From positions 1-37,450 of the forward strand of contig NZ_JAJOMA010000041.1 of assembly GCF_021129235.1 (NCBI RefSeq): a stretch of 37,450 nt of DNA, given 5' to 3'. Under the pieces are notes generated by a model that saw nothing but the letters and a program-made list of their open reading frames with translations, searched no databases and had not been told where the DNA came from. The translations under genes were made by a program, and so were the position numbers. Source of the DNA: Kineosporia mesophila (GTDB lineage Bacteria > Actinomycetota > Actinomycetes > Actinomycetales > Kineosporiaceae). Shown here piece after piece: positions 6,831 to 13,564 of this stretch. Numbering within the stretch: the stretch's first letter is position 1; every line of letters begins with the position of its first letter.

Positions 6831-7613
6831 TCAGCTCTGGCGGAGGAGGTACTCGCGCCATGCCCGTGAATACTGGGCAATCTCCTGAGGCCAGTCCTTC
6901 GGGCCGGGCATGATTGCGATCTCGTCCCAAATAGCCTGGAAAGTGTCGGCGAACGCGGTTACGGCGGCCGCTGGCCGGTTTTGCCAGGCTGGAATGCGCG
7001 ACGCCCAAGCATCAGCTGAGGCAGGTGTGTGACCGTGCCTGACCAGGTAGACGGCCCAGATGAAGGGGTCGACCCAGGCTGGCCCGGCCGTGAGCCAGGC
7101 CCAATCGATGACGTGAGCCCCCCGGGCACTGATCATGACGTTGTCCGTGTGCAGGTCGGTGTGCAAGAGGGCCGGCCCGGCCGGACAGCCGGGCCAGCGC
7201 GTCTCGGCTCTGAGCGATGCGGTTACTGCCGAGTGGGTGCCGAGTTCGGCAATGGTGGTTGCCACGACACCGAGGTCGGCAGACCCGGGTCGGTAGTCGG
7301 CAGGCCGCGATTCGGACGGCAGAGCATCGAAGGCGATGATGTCCCAGGCGGGGCCTACGCTGCGCCACTTCACAGCCGGACAGAAACCGGGCAGGATCGC
7401 CGCCGCGCTGGCCTCGCGTTCCTGAGTCTTCCAGGGACGGTCGTGCCGGATGGGTAGACCCTTGATGAATAGACGGTTTCGGCCCTGGGTAACGATCCCG
7501 GCGATAGCACTGTTCCTGCCTGGTCCGACGGTCTCGTACGAGTCGATGGGACCAAGGTGGGCGACGACAGCGTCGAGTGCTTCAGCAGGAAGCTCGGTGA
7601 TTCTGTCGGGCAC
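6831..7613 (-). CDS. aminoglycoside phosphotransferase/choline-kinase-like kinase
   Basis: 260 residues. The catalytic loop HTDLHTDN at ~165-172 (Brenner-type HxDxxxxN) and the metal-binding Asp in VIDWAW follow at the usual spacing. The N-lobe (~1-95) is short, with RLFIKGLP as the probable lysine strand. Such kinases phosphorylate small molecules, sugars or peptides. The gene is on the same strand as, and downstream of, the radical SAM gene and peptide gene, with a strong hairpin between. It could be a tailoring kinase, a self-protection enzyme or an unrelated neighbour. The start is GTG at 7613; the Shine-Dalgarno GGAGAGG lies only 2 nt away, so the start may be slightly misplaced. GC is lower than in flanking regions. 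Confidence 0.85.
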   Translation of the reverse strand: MPDRITELPAEALDAVVAHLGPIDSYETVGPGRNSAIAGIVTQGRNRLFIKGLPIRHDRPWKTQEREASAAAILPGFCPAVKWRSVGPAWDIIAFDALPSESRPADYRPGSADLGVVATTIAELGTHSAVTASLRAETRWPGCPAGPALLHTDLHTDNVMISARGAHVIDWAWLTAGPAWVDPFIWAVYLVRHGHTPASADAWASRIPAWQNRPAAAVTAFADTFQAIWDEIAIMPGPKDWPQEIAQYSRAWREYLLRQS

Positions 7614-7636: not shown

Positions 7637-7675
7637 TGTGCTGTCCGGCCGGAGCCGGACCGGCCGGACAGCACA
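7637..7675. terminator. 16-bp perfect hairpin after the peptide gene
   Basis: tgtgctgtccggccgg (7637-7652) and its exact complement (7660-7675) flank a 7-nt loop. On the minus strand it lies 15 nt after the peptide stop and 23 nt before the kinase start. It could terminate most transcripts after the peptide, giving peptide expression in excess over the kinase, or stabilise the peptide mRNA 3' end. Confidence 0.8.
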
Positions 7676-7690
7676 GTACCCCGAGCTACT

Positions 7691-7825
7691 TCAGTTGTAG
7701 GGTTGGTCGTCCCCGGCGCTACAGGAACATCCCTTCAGGTCAAGGCCCTTGAGGTCCTCGATCGGGATGACGCCTTCCTCTAGCTCGCTGGTGCGCGTGG
7801 ATGTCAGTTCCAGGATGACCGTCAT
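7691..7825 (-). CDS. candidate RiPP precursor peptide with CxC core
   Basis: A 44-residue ORF whose ATG overlaps the stop of the radical SAM gene (ATGA), so it is translationally coupled. The N-terminal leader-like part is MTVILELTSTRTSELEEG, followed by VIPIEDLKGLDLK. The candidate core GCSCSAGDDQPYN runs from Gly32, with Cys33 and Cys35 as the only cysteines. Acidic/hydrophobic leader, Gly before the Cys motif, short polar C-terminus and position beside a SPASM enzyme are what a radical SAM-modified peptide should look like. I do not match it to a named family. The core boundary and chemistry (for example Cys thioether links) are inference. Without a modification role it would be a small protein of unknown function. 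Confidence 0.75.
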   Translation of the reverse strand: MTVILELTSTRTSELEEGVIPIEDLKGLDLKGCSCSAGDDQPYN

Positions 7826-8943
7826 GACATTTGCTCCTTCTCACCGTGTTGGCAGTACCTGTTCAGTTCCGCCCCCGCTTCCTGATAGAGCTTCGCCAGC
7901 GGTCGGCACGTGGAGCAGGTGCCGGACAAAGTGCAGCCGGCGCAGCCGCCAGTGCGGAGGTGACCTTCGTCGGCGTAGTCGCCGAGTTTCCGCAGGCCGT
8001 TCGCGCCCTCCTGAAGCACATCGACTTCCTTCTCGCGGGCGATCTTGCAGAAGGTCGCCTTGCCGAGCGGATCGACGGCGAAGAAGGTGTGGCCGGCGTT
8101 GCAACCGGTGAATGGCTTCCGCTTGCGCCCGTGCCGGGTGGACTGCTGGGTCATCACATCGCCCTCCCCGTTGAAGGTGGGGGTGATCTGGTGATAAGAG
8201 AAGTGGCTGATACCGAGGTCTTCGGCGTAGGTGGCCATGTCGGCTTCTTCGGCGTCGTTGTGACGGGTGACAATGATGTTCAGCTTGACCGGCAGCCCGG
8301 CCGCCACCGCTGCCTCCACTCCCCGCTTGAACTGCTTGTACGAGCCCCGCCGCTGGGTCAGGGCCTCGTAGGACTCCTGGGTCGCGCCGTACATGCTGAC
8401 GGCGATCTCCTTCGGCGCAGCCTGCCGGAACGCGTCCAGAATGTCCTCACGCCATAACCTCGACCCGTTAGTCGACAGGTTGACCAGGATGCCGAGCTGT
8501 GACGCGAGGAGGTAAGTCCTCACAAAATCGCGGTCGACGGTTGCCTCGCCACCGGTGACCTGAAGATAAAGAACGCCGACATCGCGAAGAACTTCGAGGA
8601 GCCGTACCTTCTTCTCCCATGGCAGTCCGATGAACGGCTTGTCACCTAGATAGCAATGTGTGCAGTCGTAGTTGCAACCGAGGTTGATCTCGTAAGACGC
8701 CCGGGCGAATGCGGGTTCGGTCTCTTCCCGCACGAGCACTCGCTCTGCGGCCGGGCCGGTGAGATCGTGTACGCCGAGGTAACGGGGCGCGGCCTTGGCC
8801 AACCATTCTGGTACGGAATTGCCATCATCAACAGCATCTTTCAAGCCCAGGTAATGCCTTCGGGTGACCTTCAGTCCGGCGCTGCCGGTGCGTGATGCAA
8901 TGACGTGGTGATCGAGGTACGGCGAGGCAATGAGCTCATGCAC
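7822..8943 (-). CDS. radical SAM/SPASM peptide maturase
   Basis: 373 residues. The radical SAM cluster motif is Cys90-x3-Cys94-x2-Cys97, and TGGE (130-133) is the SAM-binding motif. The C-terminal SPASM set is nearly complete: Cys281, Gly294-x4-Cys299, Cys334-x2-Cys337-x5-Cys343-x2-Cys346, then Cys364, enough for two auxiliary 4Fe-4S clusters. The first ~80 residues precede the core and may recognise the peptide leader. Related enzymes install thioether or C-C crosslinks in ribosomal peptides. The start is GTG at 8943, with GAGAGG 8 nt upstream. It overlaps the 44-residue peptide gene by 4 bp. A sampled stretch (8641-8700) is only 50% GC, which suggests acquisition. Confidence 0.9.
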   Translation of the reverse strand: MHELIASPYLDHHVIASRTGSAGLKVTRRHYLGLKDAVDDGNSVPEWLAKAAPRYLGVHDLTGPAAERVLVREETEPAFARASYEINLGCNYDCTHCYLGDKPFIGLPWEKKVRLLEVLRDVGVLYLQVTGGEATVDRDFVRTYLLASQLGILVNLSTNGSRLWREDILDAFRQAAPKEIAVSMYGATQESYEALTQRRGSYKQFKRGVEAAVAAGLPVKLNIIVTRHNDAEEADMATYAEDLGISHFSYHQITPTFNGEGDVMTQQSTRHGRKRKPFTGCNAGHTFFAVDPLGKATFCKIAREKEVDVLQEGANGLRKLGDYADEGHLRTGGCAGCTLSGTCSTCRPLAKLYQEAGAELNRYCQHGEKEQMS

Positions 8944-9251: not shown

Positions 9252-9515
9252 TCAATCCCGCGATGGCGACGCGACGTGATGCGCTCGAAATTCAGGTCCA
9301 TCGGCATCGGAGGGTATGAGATCGAACTCCCCGGCCTTGACGGCTTCGAGGAAGGCTCGCCATTCGTCGTGGGTGAAGGAGAAGGGTAGAGCCTGGCTCA
9401 TTTTCGTGTCGCCCACCTTGATGCCGACACCTCGGCTGTCGACGCGTACCTGCACGCAGTCCCGACCGCGGGCCGAGGTGCTTGCCTTCTGCCAACGGCC
9501 GTCGGTCCTGAGCAT
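9252..9515 (-). CDS. DUF397 domain-containing protein
   Basis: 87 residues with the DUF397 pattern: W-x-KAS-T-S near the N-terminus, Cys20 in DCVQVRVDSRGVGIKVGDTK, then LPFSFTHDEWRAFLEAVKAGEFDL. DUF397 proteins are common in actinomycetes and usually sit directly beside an XRE-DUF5753 regulator, with which they act in developmental or secondary-metabolism switching. Here no such partner adjoins: the gene stands alone between the radical SAM locus and the iron transporter. It may regulate, or have travelled with, the peptide locus. The start is ATG at 9515. Confidence 0.88.
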   Translation of the reverse strand: MLRTDGRWQKASTSARGRDCVQVRVDSRGVGIKVGDTKMSQALPFSFTHDEWRAFLEAVKAGEFDLIPSDADGPEFRAHHVASPSRD

Positions 9516-9597: not shown

Positions 9598-10635
9598 CTA
9601 ACCCTTCCTCCAGGTCAGCACCCACAACAGGTACAGCCCACCCAGCGCCGCCGTGACCAGCCCGACCGGGATCTGGAAAGGGCTGAGCAGACGCTGGGCC
9701 AGGAGGTCGCCGGCGCTGAGCAGCACCGCGCCCATCGCCATTGAGGGCAGCAGGGCGATGCCGGGGGAGTGGGCGACCTTGCGGGCCAGCTGAGGCGCGG
9801 CCATGGCCAGGAAACCGATCGGGCCGGACGTGGCCACGGCCACCCCGGCCAGAGCAACGCCCGCTGCCAGCAACAAGATTCGGACACGAGCGACCTCGAC
9901 CCCGAGACCGCTGGCGGCGTCGTCCCCCATTTCCAGCACTCGCATCGGCCCGGCCAGGGCCAGGGTGAGGGGCACCAGGACAGCGAGCACGACGAGGACC
10001 GGGGTGACATGCGGCCAGGTGATGGTGTTCAGGCTGCCGAACTGCCAGGCCTTGGCCGTCTCGGCGTCTTCCAGTGTGGCCCGGGTGATGAGGTAGTCGT
10101 TGACCGAGGAGAGCATGGCACCGACCGCGATGCCGGTGAGAATGAGGCGTTCGCCGCCCTTTCCGTGACCGGCGCTGAGGGCGTAGACGAACAGCGCGGT
10201 GGCGAAGCCGCCGGTCACGGTGCCGGTGGCGATGCTCGCGAACGACGAGGTGCCCGCCAGGAGAATGACGATCAGGCCGCCGCTGGCCGATCCGGTGGCG
10301 AAACCGACCACGTCCGGGCTGCCGAGAGGGTTGCGGCTGATGCTCTGGAACACTGCCCCGGACAGGCCGAGGGCGGCGCCGACGAGCACGGCGGCGACGG
10401 CCCGGGGCAGGCGCTGGCGCAGCACGATGAATTGGTCCATGTCGCTGCCACCGCCCATAAGGGTATGCAGCAGATCACTTCTGGTGATCTCGTAGGCGCC
10501 GGTGGCGACGGTGACGGCCACAATGATGGACGCCGTGGTCAGCAGGGCGGCGACGGTCACGGTGGAGCGGCGGTGCAGTCGGAGAGTGAAACCTCCGGGC
10601 AGCTTCAGCGCGGTGAAGCCGGGCACGGTGGTCAT
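9598..10635 (-). CDS. FecCD-type iron-siderophore ABC permease (second)
   Basis: 345 residues with about nine to ten hydrophobic segments. FecCD signatures are present: VLRQRLPRAVAAVLVGAALG, LSGAVFQSISRNPLGSPDVVG, and a C-terminal GPIGFLAMAAPQLAR followed by LLAQRLLSPFQIPVGLVTAALGG. The true start is ATG at 10635, overlapping the upstream permease stop by 4 bp (ATGA); the longer upstream frame is Arg-rich noise. It forms the membrane channel with the next permease to import ferric siderophores or haem-like chelates. It is expected to be under the iron box at 11700. Confidence 0.93.
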   Translation of the reverse strand: MTTVPGFTALKLPGGFTLRLHRRSTVTVAALLTTASIIVAVTVATGAYEITRSDLLHTLMGGGSDMDQFIVLRQRLPRAVAAVLVGAALGLSGAVFQSISRNPLGSPDVVGFATGSASGGLIVILLAGTSSFASIATGTVTGGFATALFVYALSAGHGKGGERLILTGIAVGAMLSSVNDYLITRATLEDAETAKAWQFGSLNTITWPHVTPVLVVLAVLVPLTLALAGPMRVLEMGDDAASGLGVEVARVRILLLAAGVALAGVAVATSGPIGFLAMAAPQLARKVAHSPGIALLPSMAMGAVLLSAGDLLAQRLLSPFQIPVGLVTAALGGLYLLWVLTWRKG

Positions 10636-11699
10636 GAGTTTCTCCTGGACTGCCGGAGCACGAGATGGACGAGAACGGGCGCCCCGACGAAAGCGGTGAC
10701 GATGCCGGCCTCGACCTCTCCTGGACGGGCGATCACCCGGCCCACGATGTCGGCGGCGAGAACCAGCGCGGGCCCGGCGATCAGCGAGAGGGCGAGTACC
10801 CGGCGCTGGTCGGGGCCGGTGATCAGCCGTACGGCGTGCGGTACCACCAGCCCGACGAACGCGATCGGCCCGGCCGCGGCGGTTGCGGCACCGCACAGCA
10901 GGGTGAGGACGGCGAAACAGAGGACGCGGATGTGCGCGACTTTGAGTCCCAGCGAGGAGGCCTGGTCGTCACCGAGGGCCAGGGCGTTCAGGGACGGGCC
11001 GAGCGCGAGGGCGACCAGCAGGCCGATCCCGGCAAACGGCAGAAAGGCCAGGAGGATTGACTGGTCGCGGTTGGCCAGTGATCCGACCACCCAGAAGCGG
11101 TAGGAGTCGAAGGCGTCTTCGTCGAACATCGTGATGATGCCGGTGCAGGCGCTCAGGCACGCCGACAGGGCGACACCCGCCAGCAGGAGCCGGGTCTGGC
11201 TGTTGCCCGCTGTTGTCGGATGGCCGAGTTGCCCGCAGGCCCGCTGATTCACCGCCCAGACCAGCGTGGACGCGAGAGCCGCTCCGGCGCAGGCGAACCA
11301 GACGTAACCGGTGAATGACGTGGCCCCGAACCCGGCGATCGCCACGACCACCGCGAAGGCCGCGCCGGCGTTCACCCCGAGGATGCCGGGCTCGGCCAGC
11401 GGGTTGCGGGTGAGCGCCTGCATCACGGCCCCGGCCACGCCGAGACAGGCCCCGACGGTGAGGGCGAGCACCGTGCGCGGCATGCGCAGCTGCCAGATGA
11501 TGACCGACTCCGTGCTCCGGTCACGGTGCAGGAGCCCGTCCCAGACATCGGCCATCGGGATGGGGCGTGAGCCGACGGCGACGCTGGTCATGACCAGGAT
11601 CACGATCAGGCCCAGCCCGAGCACGGCGGCGAGGGGACTGAGGACGCGTCCGGCCCCCTGCGAGGTAGTTAGAGTCCCGTACGATCTTGTGGTCGGCAC
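10632..11699 (-). CDS. FecCD-type iron-siderophore ABC permease (first)
   Basis: 355 residues. FecCD hallmarks are IIWQLRMPRTVLALTVGACLG, VAGAVMQALTRNPLAEPGILG and GPIAFVGLVVPHAVRLITGPD, with multiple transmembrane helices. The first helix begins near residue 20, so the start must lie upstream of that. The only visible candidate is GTG at 11699, which has no Shine-Dalgarno and directly abuts the iron box. TAGGCT lies 7 nt upstream, so a leaderless transcript is likely. It pairs with the downstream permease, with the binding protein and ATPase encoded divergently. Confidence 0.92.
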   Translation of the reverse strand: MPTTRSYGTLTTSQGAGRVLSPLAAVLGLGLIVILVMTSVAVGSRPIPMADVWDGLLHRDRSTESVIIWQLRMPRTVLALTVGACLGVAGAVMQALTRNPLAEPGILGVNAGAAFAVVVAIAGFGATSFTGYVWFACAGAALASTLVWAVNQRACGQLGHPTTAGNSQTRLLLAGVALSACLSACTGIITMFDEDAFDSYRFWVVGSLANRDQSILLAFLPFAGIGLLVALALGPSLNALALGDDQASSLGLKVAHIRVLCFAVLTLLCGAATAAAGPIAFVGLVVPHAVRLITGPDQRRVLALSLIAGPALVLAADIVGRVIARPGEVEAGIVTAFVGAPVLVHLVLRQSRRNS

Positions 11700-11718
11700 T
11701 TAGGTAAGCCTAGGCTAA
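11700..11718. promoter_or_regulatory. IdeR/DmdR iron box and overlapping divergent promoters
   Basis: ttaggtaagcctaggctaa matches the actinomycete iron-box consensus (TTAGGTTAGGCTAACCTAA) at 15 of 19 positions and contains the perfect palindrome agcctaggct (11707-11716). It fills the 24-bp gap between the GTG starts at 11699 and 11724. TAGGCT occurs on both strands, 7 nt before each GTG, so the same palindrome may hold both -10 elements. Iron-loaded repressor bound here should silence both operons. Confidence 0.85.
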
Positions 11719-11723
11719 CTTCC

Positions 11724-12755
11724 GTGAACATCCGAACCCCCCTCCGGCCGTTTGTGGCCGTGAGCTGCGTCATCTCCGCCGCACTGGTGCTCAGCGCCTG
11801 CGGTGGAGGCTCGTCCGAGTCCTCTGCGCCCGCCTCGGCCGCAACCCAGAAGAGCGAATACGTCACCCCGCGCACCATGCCCGAAGGCAAGGGCAGTAAC
11901 GCCGCGGACGGTGATTTCCCTCGCACCGTCGTGCATTTCCAGGGTAAGAGCACGCTGGAAGCCGAACCCGAGAAGATCGTCGTGATCTCCACCGGTCAGG
12001 CCGACGCTCTGCTCACGCTCGGGGTGGTGCCGGTCGGTTCCACCGCCGGTGACGGCGCCGACATGATCCCGGCGTACCTGACCGAGGCATTCCCCGACGA
12101 CGCCGACGACCTGGCCGCAGTGACGTCGGTGGGCGACCGGTTCGCCCCCGACCTGGAGTCGGTGGCCAACCTCAAGCCCGACTTGATCCTGATGAACACG
12201 GCCGGCAAGGATGCCGCCGCGATGTACAAGAGCCTCAGCGAGATCGCGCCCACGGTTGCCACCCAGGGCACCGGCCTGTACTGGAAGCAGGACTTCCTGC
12301 TGCTGGGCGACGCGATCGGCAAGCGTGAGCAGGCCGAGAAGTGGCTGGACGACTACCAGACCGAGGCCGCCGACTTCGGGAAGGGGCTCCCGGACCCGGG
12401 GAACGTCTCCTTCCTGCGGCAGAACGAAGACCGCACGCGGGTGTTCGGCGTCGCCTCGTTCAGTGGCTCGGTCGCCGAGGACATCGGCCTGCCGCGCCCG
12501 GAGAGCCAGAGCTTCACCGACGAGACCTCGCAGGACATCAGCTCCGAGCAGCTCGACCTGGCCGACGGCGACCACCTGTTCTACGGCGTGCAGGGCGGCG
12601 ACGCGACCAAGCTGACCGGCCTTCCGCTGTGGGACTCGCTCGCCGTGGTGCAGGCCGGGAAGGCCGTCGCGGTCGACGACGACACGTTTTACCTCAACAC
12701 CGGCCCGACCGCCGCACGGGGGATCCTGTCCACGCTCGAGAAGACCCTCGGGTGA
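11724..12755 (+). CDS. iron-siderophore ABC transporter binding lipoprotein
   Basis: 343 residues. The signal peptide has a lipobox LSAC (Cys at ~26), then a Ser/Ala-rich linker. The FhuD/FepB-like body has KIVVISTGQADALLTLGVVPVG (~84-105), SLADLKPDLIL-like NLKPDLILMN, and the second lobe ending LAVVQAGKAVAVDDDTFYLNTGPTAARGIL. It is anchored to the outer face of the membrane and delivers ferric siderophore to the divergent permeases. The GTG at 11724 has no Shine-Dalgarno and is probably leaderless. The last codons overlap the ATPase start (GTGA). Confidence 0.93.
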   Translation: MNIRTPLRPFVAVSCVISAALVLSACGGGSSESSAPASAATQKSEYVTPRTMPEGKGSNAADGDFPRTVVHFQGKSTLEAEPEKIVVISTGQADALLTLGVVPVGSTAGDGADMIPAYLTEAFPDDADDLAAVTSVGDRFAPDLESVANLKPDLILMNTAGKDAAAMYKSLSEIAPTVATQGTGLYWKQDFLLLGDAIGKREQAEKWLDDYQTEAADFGKGLPDPGNVSFLRQNEDRTRVFGVASFSGSVAEDIGLPRPESQSFTDETSQDISSEQLDLADGDHLFYGVQGGDATKLTGLPLWDSLAVVQAGKAVAVDDDTFYLNTGPTAARGILSTLEKTLG

Positions 12756-13564
12756 GTCGTTCCCAGGGCGGGCCGAGGCTGGTGGTGGAAGCCGCCGGCC
12801 TCGGCTACTCCGCGGACCGGATGATCTGCGTGGGCCTGGACGTGGCGATCCCGGACGGCGAGATCACGGTCATCGTCGGCCCGAACGCCTGCGGTAAGTC
12901 GACCCTGCTGCGGGCCCTGGCCCGGCTCCTGAAACCCCATACCGGTCAGGTGCTCCTGGACGGCCGGTCGATCTCGGCCTACGGCGCCAAGGAACTCGCC
13001 CGTCAGGTCGGCCTGCTGCCGCAGACCTCCATCGCGCCCGACGGCATCACGGTGGCGGATCTGGTGGGCAGAGGACGATTCCCGCACCAGAGTCTGCTGC
13101 ACCAGTGGTCGTCGGCGGACGACGCGGCGGTACGGTCGGCGATGGAGCGCACCTCGGTCACGGAACTGGCGGCCCGCGGGGTGGACGAGCTGTCCGGTGG
13201 TCAGCGGCAGCGGGTCTGGGTGGCCATGGCACTGGCCCAGCAGACCCCGGTGCTGCTGCTCGACGAGCCCACGACCTTTCTCGACATCGCCCATCAGGTC
13301 GAGGTTCTCGAACTGTGCCGGGAACTGAACCAGGCCGAGGGCAAGACGATCGTGGCGGTGCTGCACGACCTGAACCAGGCCTGCCGCTACGCCGATCACA
13401 TCATCGCGATGAAGGACGGCGCGATCGTGGCCCAGGGCCGCCCCGCCGACGTGATCACGGCCGAGGTGGTCGAGGCGGTGTTCGGGCTAAAGTGCCTGAT
13501 CATCGACGACCCGGTGACCGGCACACCTCTCACTGTGCCGCTGGTCGGCGTCCACCGGAAGTAG
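12752..13564 (+). CDS. iron-siderophore ABC transporter ATPase
   Basis: 270 residues, FepC/FecE type. Walker A GPNACGKST at 43-51, a Q-loop in VGLLPQTS, signature LSGGQRQRVWVAMALA, Walker B VLLLDEPTTFLDIAHQVEVL and the switch histidine in VAVLHDLNQACRYADHI are all intact. The GTG start at 12752 overlaps the binding-protein stop by 4 bp; the frame is open far upstream but only as an alternative reading of that gene. It powers the FecCD permeases encoded on the opposite strand. Confidence 0.95.
   Translation: MSRSQGGPRLVVEAAGLGYSADRMICVGLDVAIPDGEITVIVGPNACGKSTLLRALARLLKPHTGQVLLDGRSISAYGAKELARQVGLLPQTSIAPDGITVADLVGRGRFPHQSLLHQWSSADDAAVRSAMERTSVTELAARGVDELSGGQRQRVWVAMALAQQTPVLLLDEPTTFLDIAHQVEVLELCRELNQAEGKTIVAVLHDLNQACRYADHIIAMKDGAIVAQGRPADVITAEVVEAVFGLKCLIIDDPVTGTPLTVPLVGVHRK

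Follow-up and report, generated by a model that had tools for sequence, protein, structure and literature searches.

We analysed a stretch of 37,450 nucleotides from Kineosporia mesophila (contig NZ_JAJOMA010000041.1), here called the window, which carries on its minus strand a radical SAM gene, a 44-codon ORF and a kinase gene, in that order (Table 1). Pfam matched Radical_SAM to the first gene (E-value 1.1e-21) and APH to the third (E-value 3.6e-7), while no Pfam model matched the short ORF between them. The original prediction had placed the first two genes and their ATGA overlap at the positions and in the frames given here. It had also paired the two, which our results support, but it left out the third gene, the hairpin and the mobile setting described below. 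The short ORF and the kinase gene are 77 bases apart. Upstream of the locus lies a gene for a DUF397 protein, which may have a regulatory role; it is a neighbour, and its membership in the locus is only putative. One related locus (L010) also has a DUF397 gene upstream.

Table 1. Features of the locus and its upstream neighbour, numbered from the first nucleotide of the window
Feature	Position	Strand	Description
Radical SAM/SPASM peptide maturase	7822..8943	-	373 aa, GTG start; CX3CX2C at C90/C94/C97 and seven SPASM-type Cys
Precursor peptide	7691..7825	-	44 aa; ATGA (7825-7822) common to the maturase; leader, residues 1-31
Candidate core GCSCSAGDDQPYN and stop	7691..7732	-	C33, C35, D39-D40-Q41-P42-Y43
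Hairpin between precursor and kinase	7637..7675	-	16 uninterrupted pairs
APH-fold kinase	6831..7613	-	260 aa; HTDxxxxN (H151, D153, N158), D170, K51
DUF397 protein, upstream of the locus	9252..9515	-	Pfam DUF397, E-value 7.4e-11

Precursor, core and maturase

Related loci were collected from plasmids, phages, IMG/VR and genomes and reduced to 169 distinct near-complete enzymes. We dropped 11 incomplete maturase ORFs from this set, which ORFs below 300 aa never entered, and left out ten further places (seven fragments and three extra copies in one genome). An ORF with the tail pattern lies just 3' of 168 of the 169 enzymes. The pattern found 167 of these, and one (L236) was recognised by eye; its precursor ends in CSCSSSDANPYS, a DANP variant. 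At another locus (L028), cut by a contig edge, GCGDDNPYR is present in an ORF that runs on without a stop. Adjacency is tight, with the precursor start at -4 to +16 of the enzyme stop in 160 of the 167 and the 4-base overlap in 105. We also scanned 124 loci (1.84 Mb) in six frames for a stricter form of the pattern in ORFs of at least 25 codons. It matched 115 of 34,000 ORFs, every one of them at the precursor site. Computed over pairs of near relatives from 19 groups chosen by hand, dN/dS was 0.107 in the core (the last 13 residues), 0.385 in the leader and 0.32 over the whole precursor. An encoded precursor with a conserved core adjoins its enzyme across relatives, as expected of a RiPP locus.

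The ten Cys originally assigned to the radical SAM and SPASM clusters (C90, C94, C97, C281, C299, C334, C337, C343, C346 and C364) all occupy invariant alignment columns. CX3CX2C and the seven SPASM Cys were invariant across 30 homologues in one alignment and 37 in another, so the enzyme belongs with the SPASM proteins. The peptide had been proposed as the substrate of this enzyme, a proposal that would have suffered had orthologous radical SAM genes lacked the ORF or had the ORF shown no coding constraint. Neither was the case, and adjacency, the invariant Cys and purifying selection that is strongest in the core all speak for it. Sequence data could hardly give the pairing of precursor and maturase stronger support.

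Only one of the 169 enzymes lacks CX3CX2C, that of plasmid pSCAT of Streptantibioticus cattleyicolor (L011, 4001-4954), which has an internal deletion. Profile positions 156-208 are missing from it and CEHR replaces CxxC. This looks like a decayed locus whose precursor and kinase appear intact. In another maturase (L029), position 33 is followed by a long insert.

The AlphaFold model of the window maturase has a mean pLDDT of 85.9, lower in the SPASM part. Its closest solved folds are BlsE, SkfB, SuiB and entry 5why, followed by MoaA, viperin and PqqE (TM about 0.5 to 0.6). Three strands and three helices (b-b-b-a-a-a) stand ahead of the barrel in the model, and we read this region as RRE-like; Pfam gave no PqqD-like match in five maturase N-termini. 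Sequence matches in the PDB span the radical SAM core only. NCBIfam scores were far under every cut-off shown, the best being that of the mycofactocin maturase MftC (76 against a cut-off of 265 bits), and a mycofactocin identity was rejected on this score. We likewise rejected a prokaryotic viperin (pVip), since the PADLOC match covers only residues 86-259 of 373 (E-value 7e-14).

The core takes two forms. In 108 of the 167 precursors it reads x-C-S-C-x-A-G-D-D-N/Q-P-X or a variant, and in the other 59 it reads G-C-G/N-D/E/N-D-N-P-X or a variant, with a single core Cys. Counted over whole precursors, 58 have one Cys, 108 have two and one has three. Over a set of 122 precursors, the second position of the D-D pair holds D in 119, the one following it N in 90 and Q in 29, P is kept in 121, and the residue after P is Y in 90, H in 21, F in nine and N in two. 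Beyond it come N, R, K, Q, QK, NN or nothing. By our own loose patterns, the leader has a V-x-V-E-I-like start in 154 of the 167 and a D-hydrophobic-D/E/G turn in 140. The two-Cys CxC core of the original prediction describes the window, whose core has just C33 and C35, but relatives are looser, with CxC in the 108 cores only.

No NCBIfam model matched any of six precursors tested, PHROGs gave no match for two, and plasmid records annotate the precursors as hypothetical. SCIFF peptides have six Cys in about 45 residues, and this class was rejected for precursors with one to three. Together with the MftC score, these results agree with the earlier view that the peptide matches no named class. 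Searches of the open-licence literature of PubMed Central listed no title or abstract opening on this precursor and maturase family. It is a widespread family that is named by none of the family models used.

A hairpin follows the precursor. In the window, the 70 bases 3' of the precursor stop fold with -41 kcal/mol (z -3.86). Across the 167 loci, the mean z of this stretch against shuffles was -3.66, with 133 below -2. As a control, the 70 bases 5' of the enzyme (n = 169) gave a mean z of 0.03, with 11 below -2. Because 70 bases can extend into the third gene, we re-scored the stretch only up to its start (n = 161; no start was found in six), and the mean z was -3.40, with 134 below -2. RNA alignments of two clades had two-sided changes in two of eight pairs (in a poor alignment) and in five of eight. 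Rfam did not match the hairpin, and a scan found no U-tailed terminator there. The hairpin may be an attenuator or a stabiliser of the mRNA end that favours the precursor over the third gene. Such elements are known between the structural and downstream genes of other RiPP operons.

The third gene and the residue after the core proline

The AlphaFold model of the window kinase (pLDDT 91.6) is closest to aminoglycoside, spectinomycin and corramycin phosphotransferases. K51, H151, N158 and D170 are invariant in 41 rows, and this fold with its catalytic HxDxxxxN and D makes the protein an APH-type kinase. Among the kinases of three relatives (L007, L009 and L010), Pfam APH matched one, under its cut-off, so we base the family assignment on the window match and the fold.

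Third genes were called with profiles grown from the kinase of phage Success and the acetyltransferase of NBC_00390 (L028 was left unscored). A kinase is present in 122 of the 168 scored loci (117 with a kinase only, four with both genes, and L236), a GNAT only in 43, and neither in three. The best NCBIfam match of the GNAT is N-acetylglutamate synthase, and streptothricin and aminoglycoside acetyltransferases also match, all far under cut-off. The catalytic loop of the 122 kinase loci is HTDxxxxN in 112 and HTExxxxN in eight, and was not found in two. The HTE kinases (L123, L127, L130, L148, L188, L192, L252 and L254) may have a changed activity; their precursors still carry Tyr. One of these loci, L192, combines a GNAT and a kinase with the core CGDDNPYQK, the only single-Cys core with a GNAT among the 167.

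The type of third gene goes with the residue after the core Pro. This residue is Tyr in all 122 kinase loci (L236 added by eye), while the 46 loci without a kinase have His (29), Phe (12), Asn (three) or Tyr (two). The two Tyr loci are L037 and L191, the latter without any third gene nearby; L008 and L152, which have neither kinase nor GNAT, are of the Phe type. L037 and L040 (Phe, no kinase) are sister loci; their clade has six members, three of which have GNAT and kinase with Tyr and three a GNAT only.

Since the loci are related, we built trees. On a tree of 122 rows the kinase changes six times, and in six independent pairs Tyr changed in the same direction in 4.7 on average and in the opposite direction in none. 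A tree of 167 rows needs about six kinase changes and five GNAT changes and gave five well-supported independent pairs, with Tyr in the same direction in 3.7 on average and again never in the opposite one. The median p of a sign test was 0.0625 and 0.125, respectively. Neither reaches 0.05 because only about six kinase switches exist. The association suggests that Tyr43 is likely the site that the kinase phosphorylates. Natural exchanges of kinase and acetyltransferase with a matched residue change would thus predict a modification site ahead of any chemistry.

Some loci retain the third gene with a missing or damaged maturase. Seven plasmid loci (L270-L276) have a kinase or GNAT relative and no maturase; their third gene is there by construction, because the queries that led to them were kinase or GNAT sequences. 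Of six plasmid records with a GNAT match, two hold the full locus and four lack the maturase. Thirty plasmid records had a kinase match; six new ones were inspected, of which three are distant (32-35% identity) and have no tail motif. In L274 and L276, on plasmids of NBC_01006 and HUAS 15-9, a precursor with an intact tail lies beside a GNAT or kinase gene, and the maturase is absent from the 8.7-8.8 kb fetched around them. The kinase of L276 is split between frames. Twelve further loci, found with the maturase query, have a damaged or shortened maturase (L004, L011, L032, L129, L200-L206 and L241). All 12 have a near full-length third gene, and the precursor is kept in 11. For some of them, an error of assembly or gene calling may account for the frameshift or the start. 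L174, L175 and L256, cut by contig ends or lacking the third-gene region, were unscored among 22 loci. In L206, profile positions 1-321 of the maturase and a GNAT form one ORF of 655 aa, as a deletion might leave behind, and no precursor was found.

Distribution and genomic setting

The locus is patchily distributed. Within its own genus it occurs in one of six genomes, that of the window, and within its own order in two of 396, the second with a broken copy (L004). Five of 198 genomes of the phylum carry it, all from one class. Of 392 genomes sampled from one genus, 71 carry it; we take this genus to be Streptomyces, because its member G564 has the same locus as a Streptomyces plasmid record (L006). 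In two other families it is present in 25 of 250 and six of 35 genomes. A single-protein scan of genome contigs found just one distant match.

Copies also occur on phages and plasmids. The isolated Streptomyces phage Success has a complete locus at one genome end, and Streptomyces plasmids have complete loci and one without the third gene. Searching IMG/VR gave 28 matches, 22 of them full-length and with complete loci, and 18 distinct ones remained in the final set. On five of eight IMG/VR contigs, six of nine flank proteins matched PHROGs (primase/helicase, tail, terminase, integrase and regulator), while the flank proteins of the other three contigs had no PHROG match. A relaxase-type group lies about 4 kb upstream in 11 of 108 long loci, for example at 2959-4995 in L138, a hint of integrated conjugative elements. 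Two locus copies (L018 and L036) lie near both ends of a 6.14 Mb contig (contig 1 of G608), as if in the terminal inverted repeats of a linear chromosome.

Other recurrent neighbours of the 108 long loci include an upstream DUF5753/HTH-type group near 36, of which one member was confirmed by Pfam, and a mixed group joined by single linkage (one ATPase-like and one further small protein), also upstream, near 45. An ABC-ATPase group lies near 12, at a distance of about 4 kb and on either strand, and does not amount to a consistent exporter. Among the flank groups inspected (seven by eye and ten by Pfam, overlapping), we saw no consistent exporter or protease.

The window copy is not evidently mobile, because its contig shows chromosomal-type genes (FecCD, LysR, an aldo-keto reductase and ABC transporters). 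Positions 9598-13564, upstream of the locus, are an iron-siderophore uptake group with a FecCD permease (10632-11699), a second FecCD-like ORF recognised by eye (9598-10896), a periplasmic binding protein and an ABC ATPase. A minus-strand ORF at 14095-15324 matches the L-amino acid ligase C-terminal domain LAL_C2 (E-value 1.1e-13) and is a possible peptide-forming ligase.

Interpretation and comparison with known systems

The gene set, its coding constraint, the precursor-maturase pairing, the kinase-Tyr association and the hairpin are established from the DNA itself. Our preferred reading, to which we give a probability of about 0.55, is a small, mobile-prone RiPP locus of three genes, in which the maturase links Cys to the tail, the kinase phosphorylates Tyr, and self-protection is somewhat likelier than tailoring. 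The leader would be bound by the RRE-like N-terminal part of the maturase, which would then modify the core. The most likely link is a thioether between the core Cys (in CxC cores, the second) and one residue of the fixed D-D-N/Q-P-X tail. That the tail is fixed and its distance to the Cys variable suggests an acceptor in the tail and a ring of variable size. The leader would probably be cleaved by a host protease, as we saw none that accompanies the locus. The kinase would recognise the tail and phosphorylate the phenol of the Tyr after Pro. In relatives, a GNAT would replace it and act on another group, so that Tyr becomes dispensable and turns into His, Phe or Asn. Finally, kinase or GNAT would disarm the product inside the producer. 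This last step, the toxicity that it presupposes, the Cys link and the phosphate on Tyr are what we infer. Several findings count against the reading: the sign tests stay above 0.05, two Tyr loci lack a kinase, two Phe loci have neither third gene, and eight kinases with a Glu loop accompany Tyr precursors.

The small ORF could in principle encode a regulator, or a peptide that binds metal, and lie there by coincidence. Its CxC and acidic residues could bind metal, and L274 and L276 keep it beside a kinase or GNAT gene with no maturase. We consider this very improbable, given that the strict pattern occurs nowhere else in 124 loci and that the ORF follows a SPASM enzyme almost without exception, mostly overlapping its stop. 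As a substrate, the peptide might be the scaffold from which a small redox cofactor or a signal is made, as with mycofactocin or PQQ, rather than a toxin. MftC is the best NCBIfam match of the maturase, albeit far below its cut-off, and the conserved part of the peptide is at its very end, as it is in MftA. The patchy distribution, with copies on phages, plasmids and viral contigs, and the flank groups inspected, among which we recognised no cofactor-type genes, make such a role improbable.

More weight falls on whether the kinase or GNAT protects the producer or finishes the product. In the latter case, phospho-Tyr would be part of the active molecule, like the Ser phosphate of paeninodin-type lasso peptides. 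This tailoring is a possible reading. It would lead to the kinase-Tyr association equally well, the third gene is missing from only three of 168 loci, and lasso kinases act on the C-terminal Ser of precursors (PMC8498205). Against it, the top folds of the kinase are antibiotic-modifying phosphotransferases, the GNAT matches, although below cut-off and led by N-acetylglutamate synthase, include enzymes that modify streptothricin and aminoglycosides, and both third genes change repeatedly on the tree and occur without the maturase. We lean towards protection because of this kinship to antibiotic enzymes, the replacement of kinase by GNAT, the maturase-less plasmid copies and the precedent of ComG. 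Of these, the argument from maturase-less loci is weak, because the finds depend on the query and 11 of the 12 damaged loci keep the precursor. The lack of a consistent exporter or protease among the inspected flanks would also be odd for a secreted toxin. If the product is a substrate of the kinase in the first place, we put protection at about even odds and tailoring clearly lower.

Tentatively, protection could be taken further, to a phage and plasmid toxin-antidote module in which a radical SAM enzyme makes a peptide toxin and an exchangeable kinase or acetyltransferase covalently disarms it and dictates a core residue. The locus might similarly serve the fitness of its phage or plasmid through superinfection exclusion, addiction or competition, with the peptide harming the cell that makes it or its neighbours, while the kinase or GNAT spares the carrier. 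The full locus of phage Success, the full-length IMG/VR matches with phage-type neighbours in most contigs inspected, the Streptomyces plasmid copies and the relaxase-type neighbours all fit this. On the other side, 141 of the 167 loci come from genome assemblies, with the setting worked out for a minority, and PADLOC matches just the radical SAM core to viperins. We therefore regard a fitness module as a doubtful option. With this family, phages and linear plasmids would join the carriers of such loci, and the modifying enzymes of the aminoglycoside type would gain a counterpart for peptides.

Self-protection by a kinase, as we prefer it, resembles the corramycin system in that an APH-fold kinase stands beside a peptide antibiotic, and the window kinase has the corramycin kinase among its top matches in fold. 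The making of corramycin is not known to involve a pair of precursor and radical SAM enzyme. ComG is described as an APH-fold kinase that inactivates the peptide antibiotic for its host (PMC10996006). The lasso-peptide kinases of paeninodin, ThcoK and SyanK also belong to RiPP loci and act on one C-terminal residue, as proposed here, but they are HPr-kinase homologues that act on Ser, in contrast to an APH fold and Tyr here (PMC8498205). Similarity to LxmK of class V lanthipeptides is weak (E-value 0.0025, 17 bits against a cut-off of 315), and this identity was rejected; the single-Cys cores, such as GCGDDNPYN, moreover have no Ser or Thr to dehydrate.

Among maturases, PapB of freyrasin joins Cys to Asp or Glu (PMC9413430), and the typical CxC cores here contain a Cys-X3-Asp that starts at their second Cys (C-S-A-G-D). 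The CX3D (CX3E) spacing of ranthipeptides is not general here, because the 59 single-Cys cores have a shorter distance from Cys to Asp. The SPASM maturases CteB, SuiB, SkfB, PqqE and MftC share a radical SAM core and SPASM-type Cys with the window maturase, which also matches SkfB, SuiB, entry 5why and PqqE in fold. These known maturases have an RRE-like N-terminal region and a short precursor encoded beside them. To our knowledge, the D-D-N/Q-P-X tail is unlike the substrates of these five. We regard these loci as a new RiPP family whose general kind is known, with an unusual association of an enzyme with a core residue and a mobile setting.
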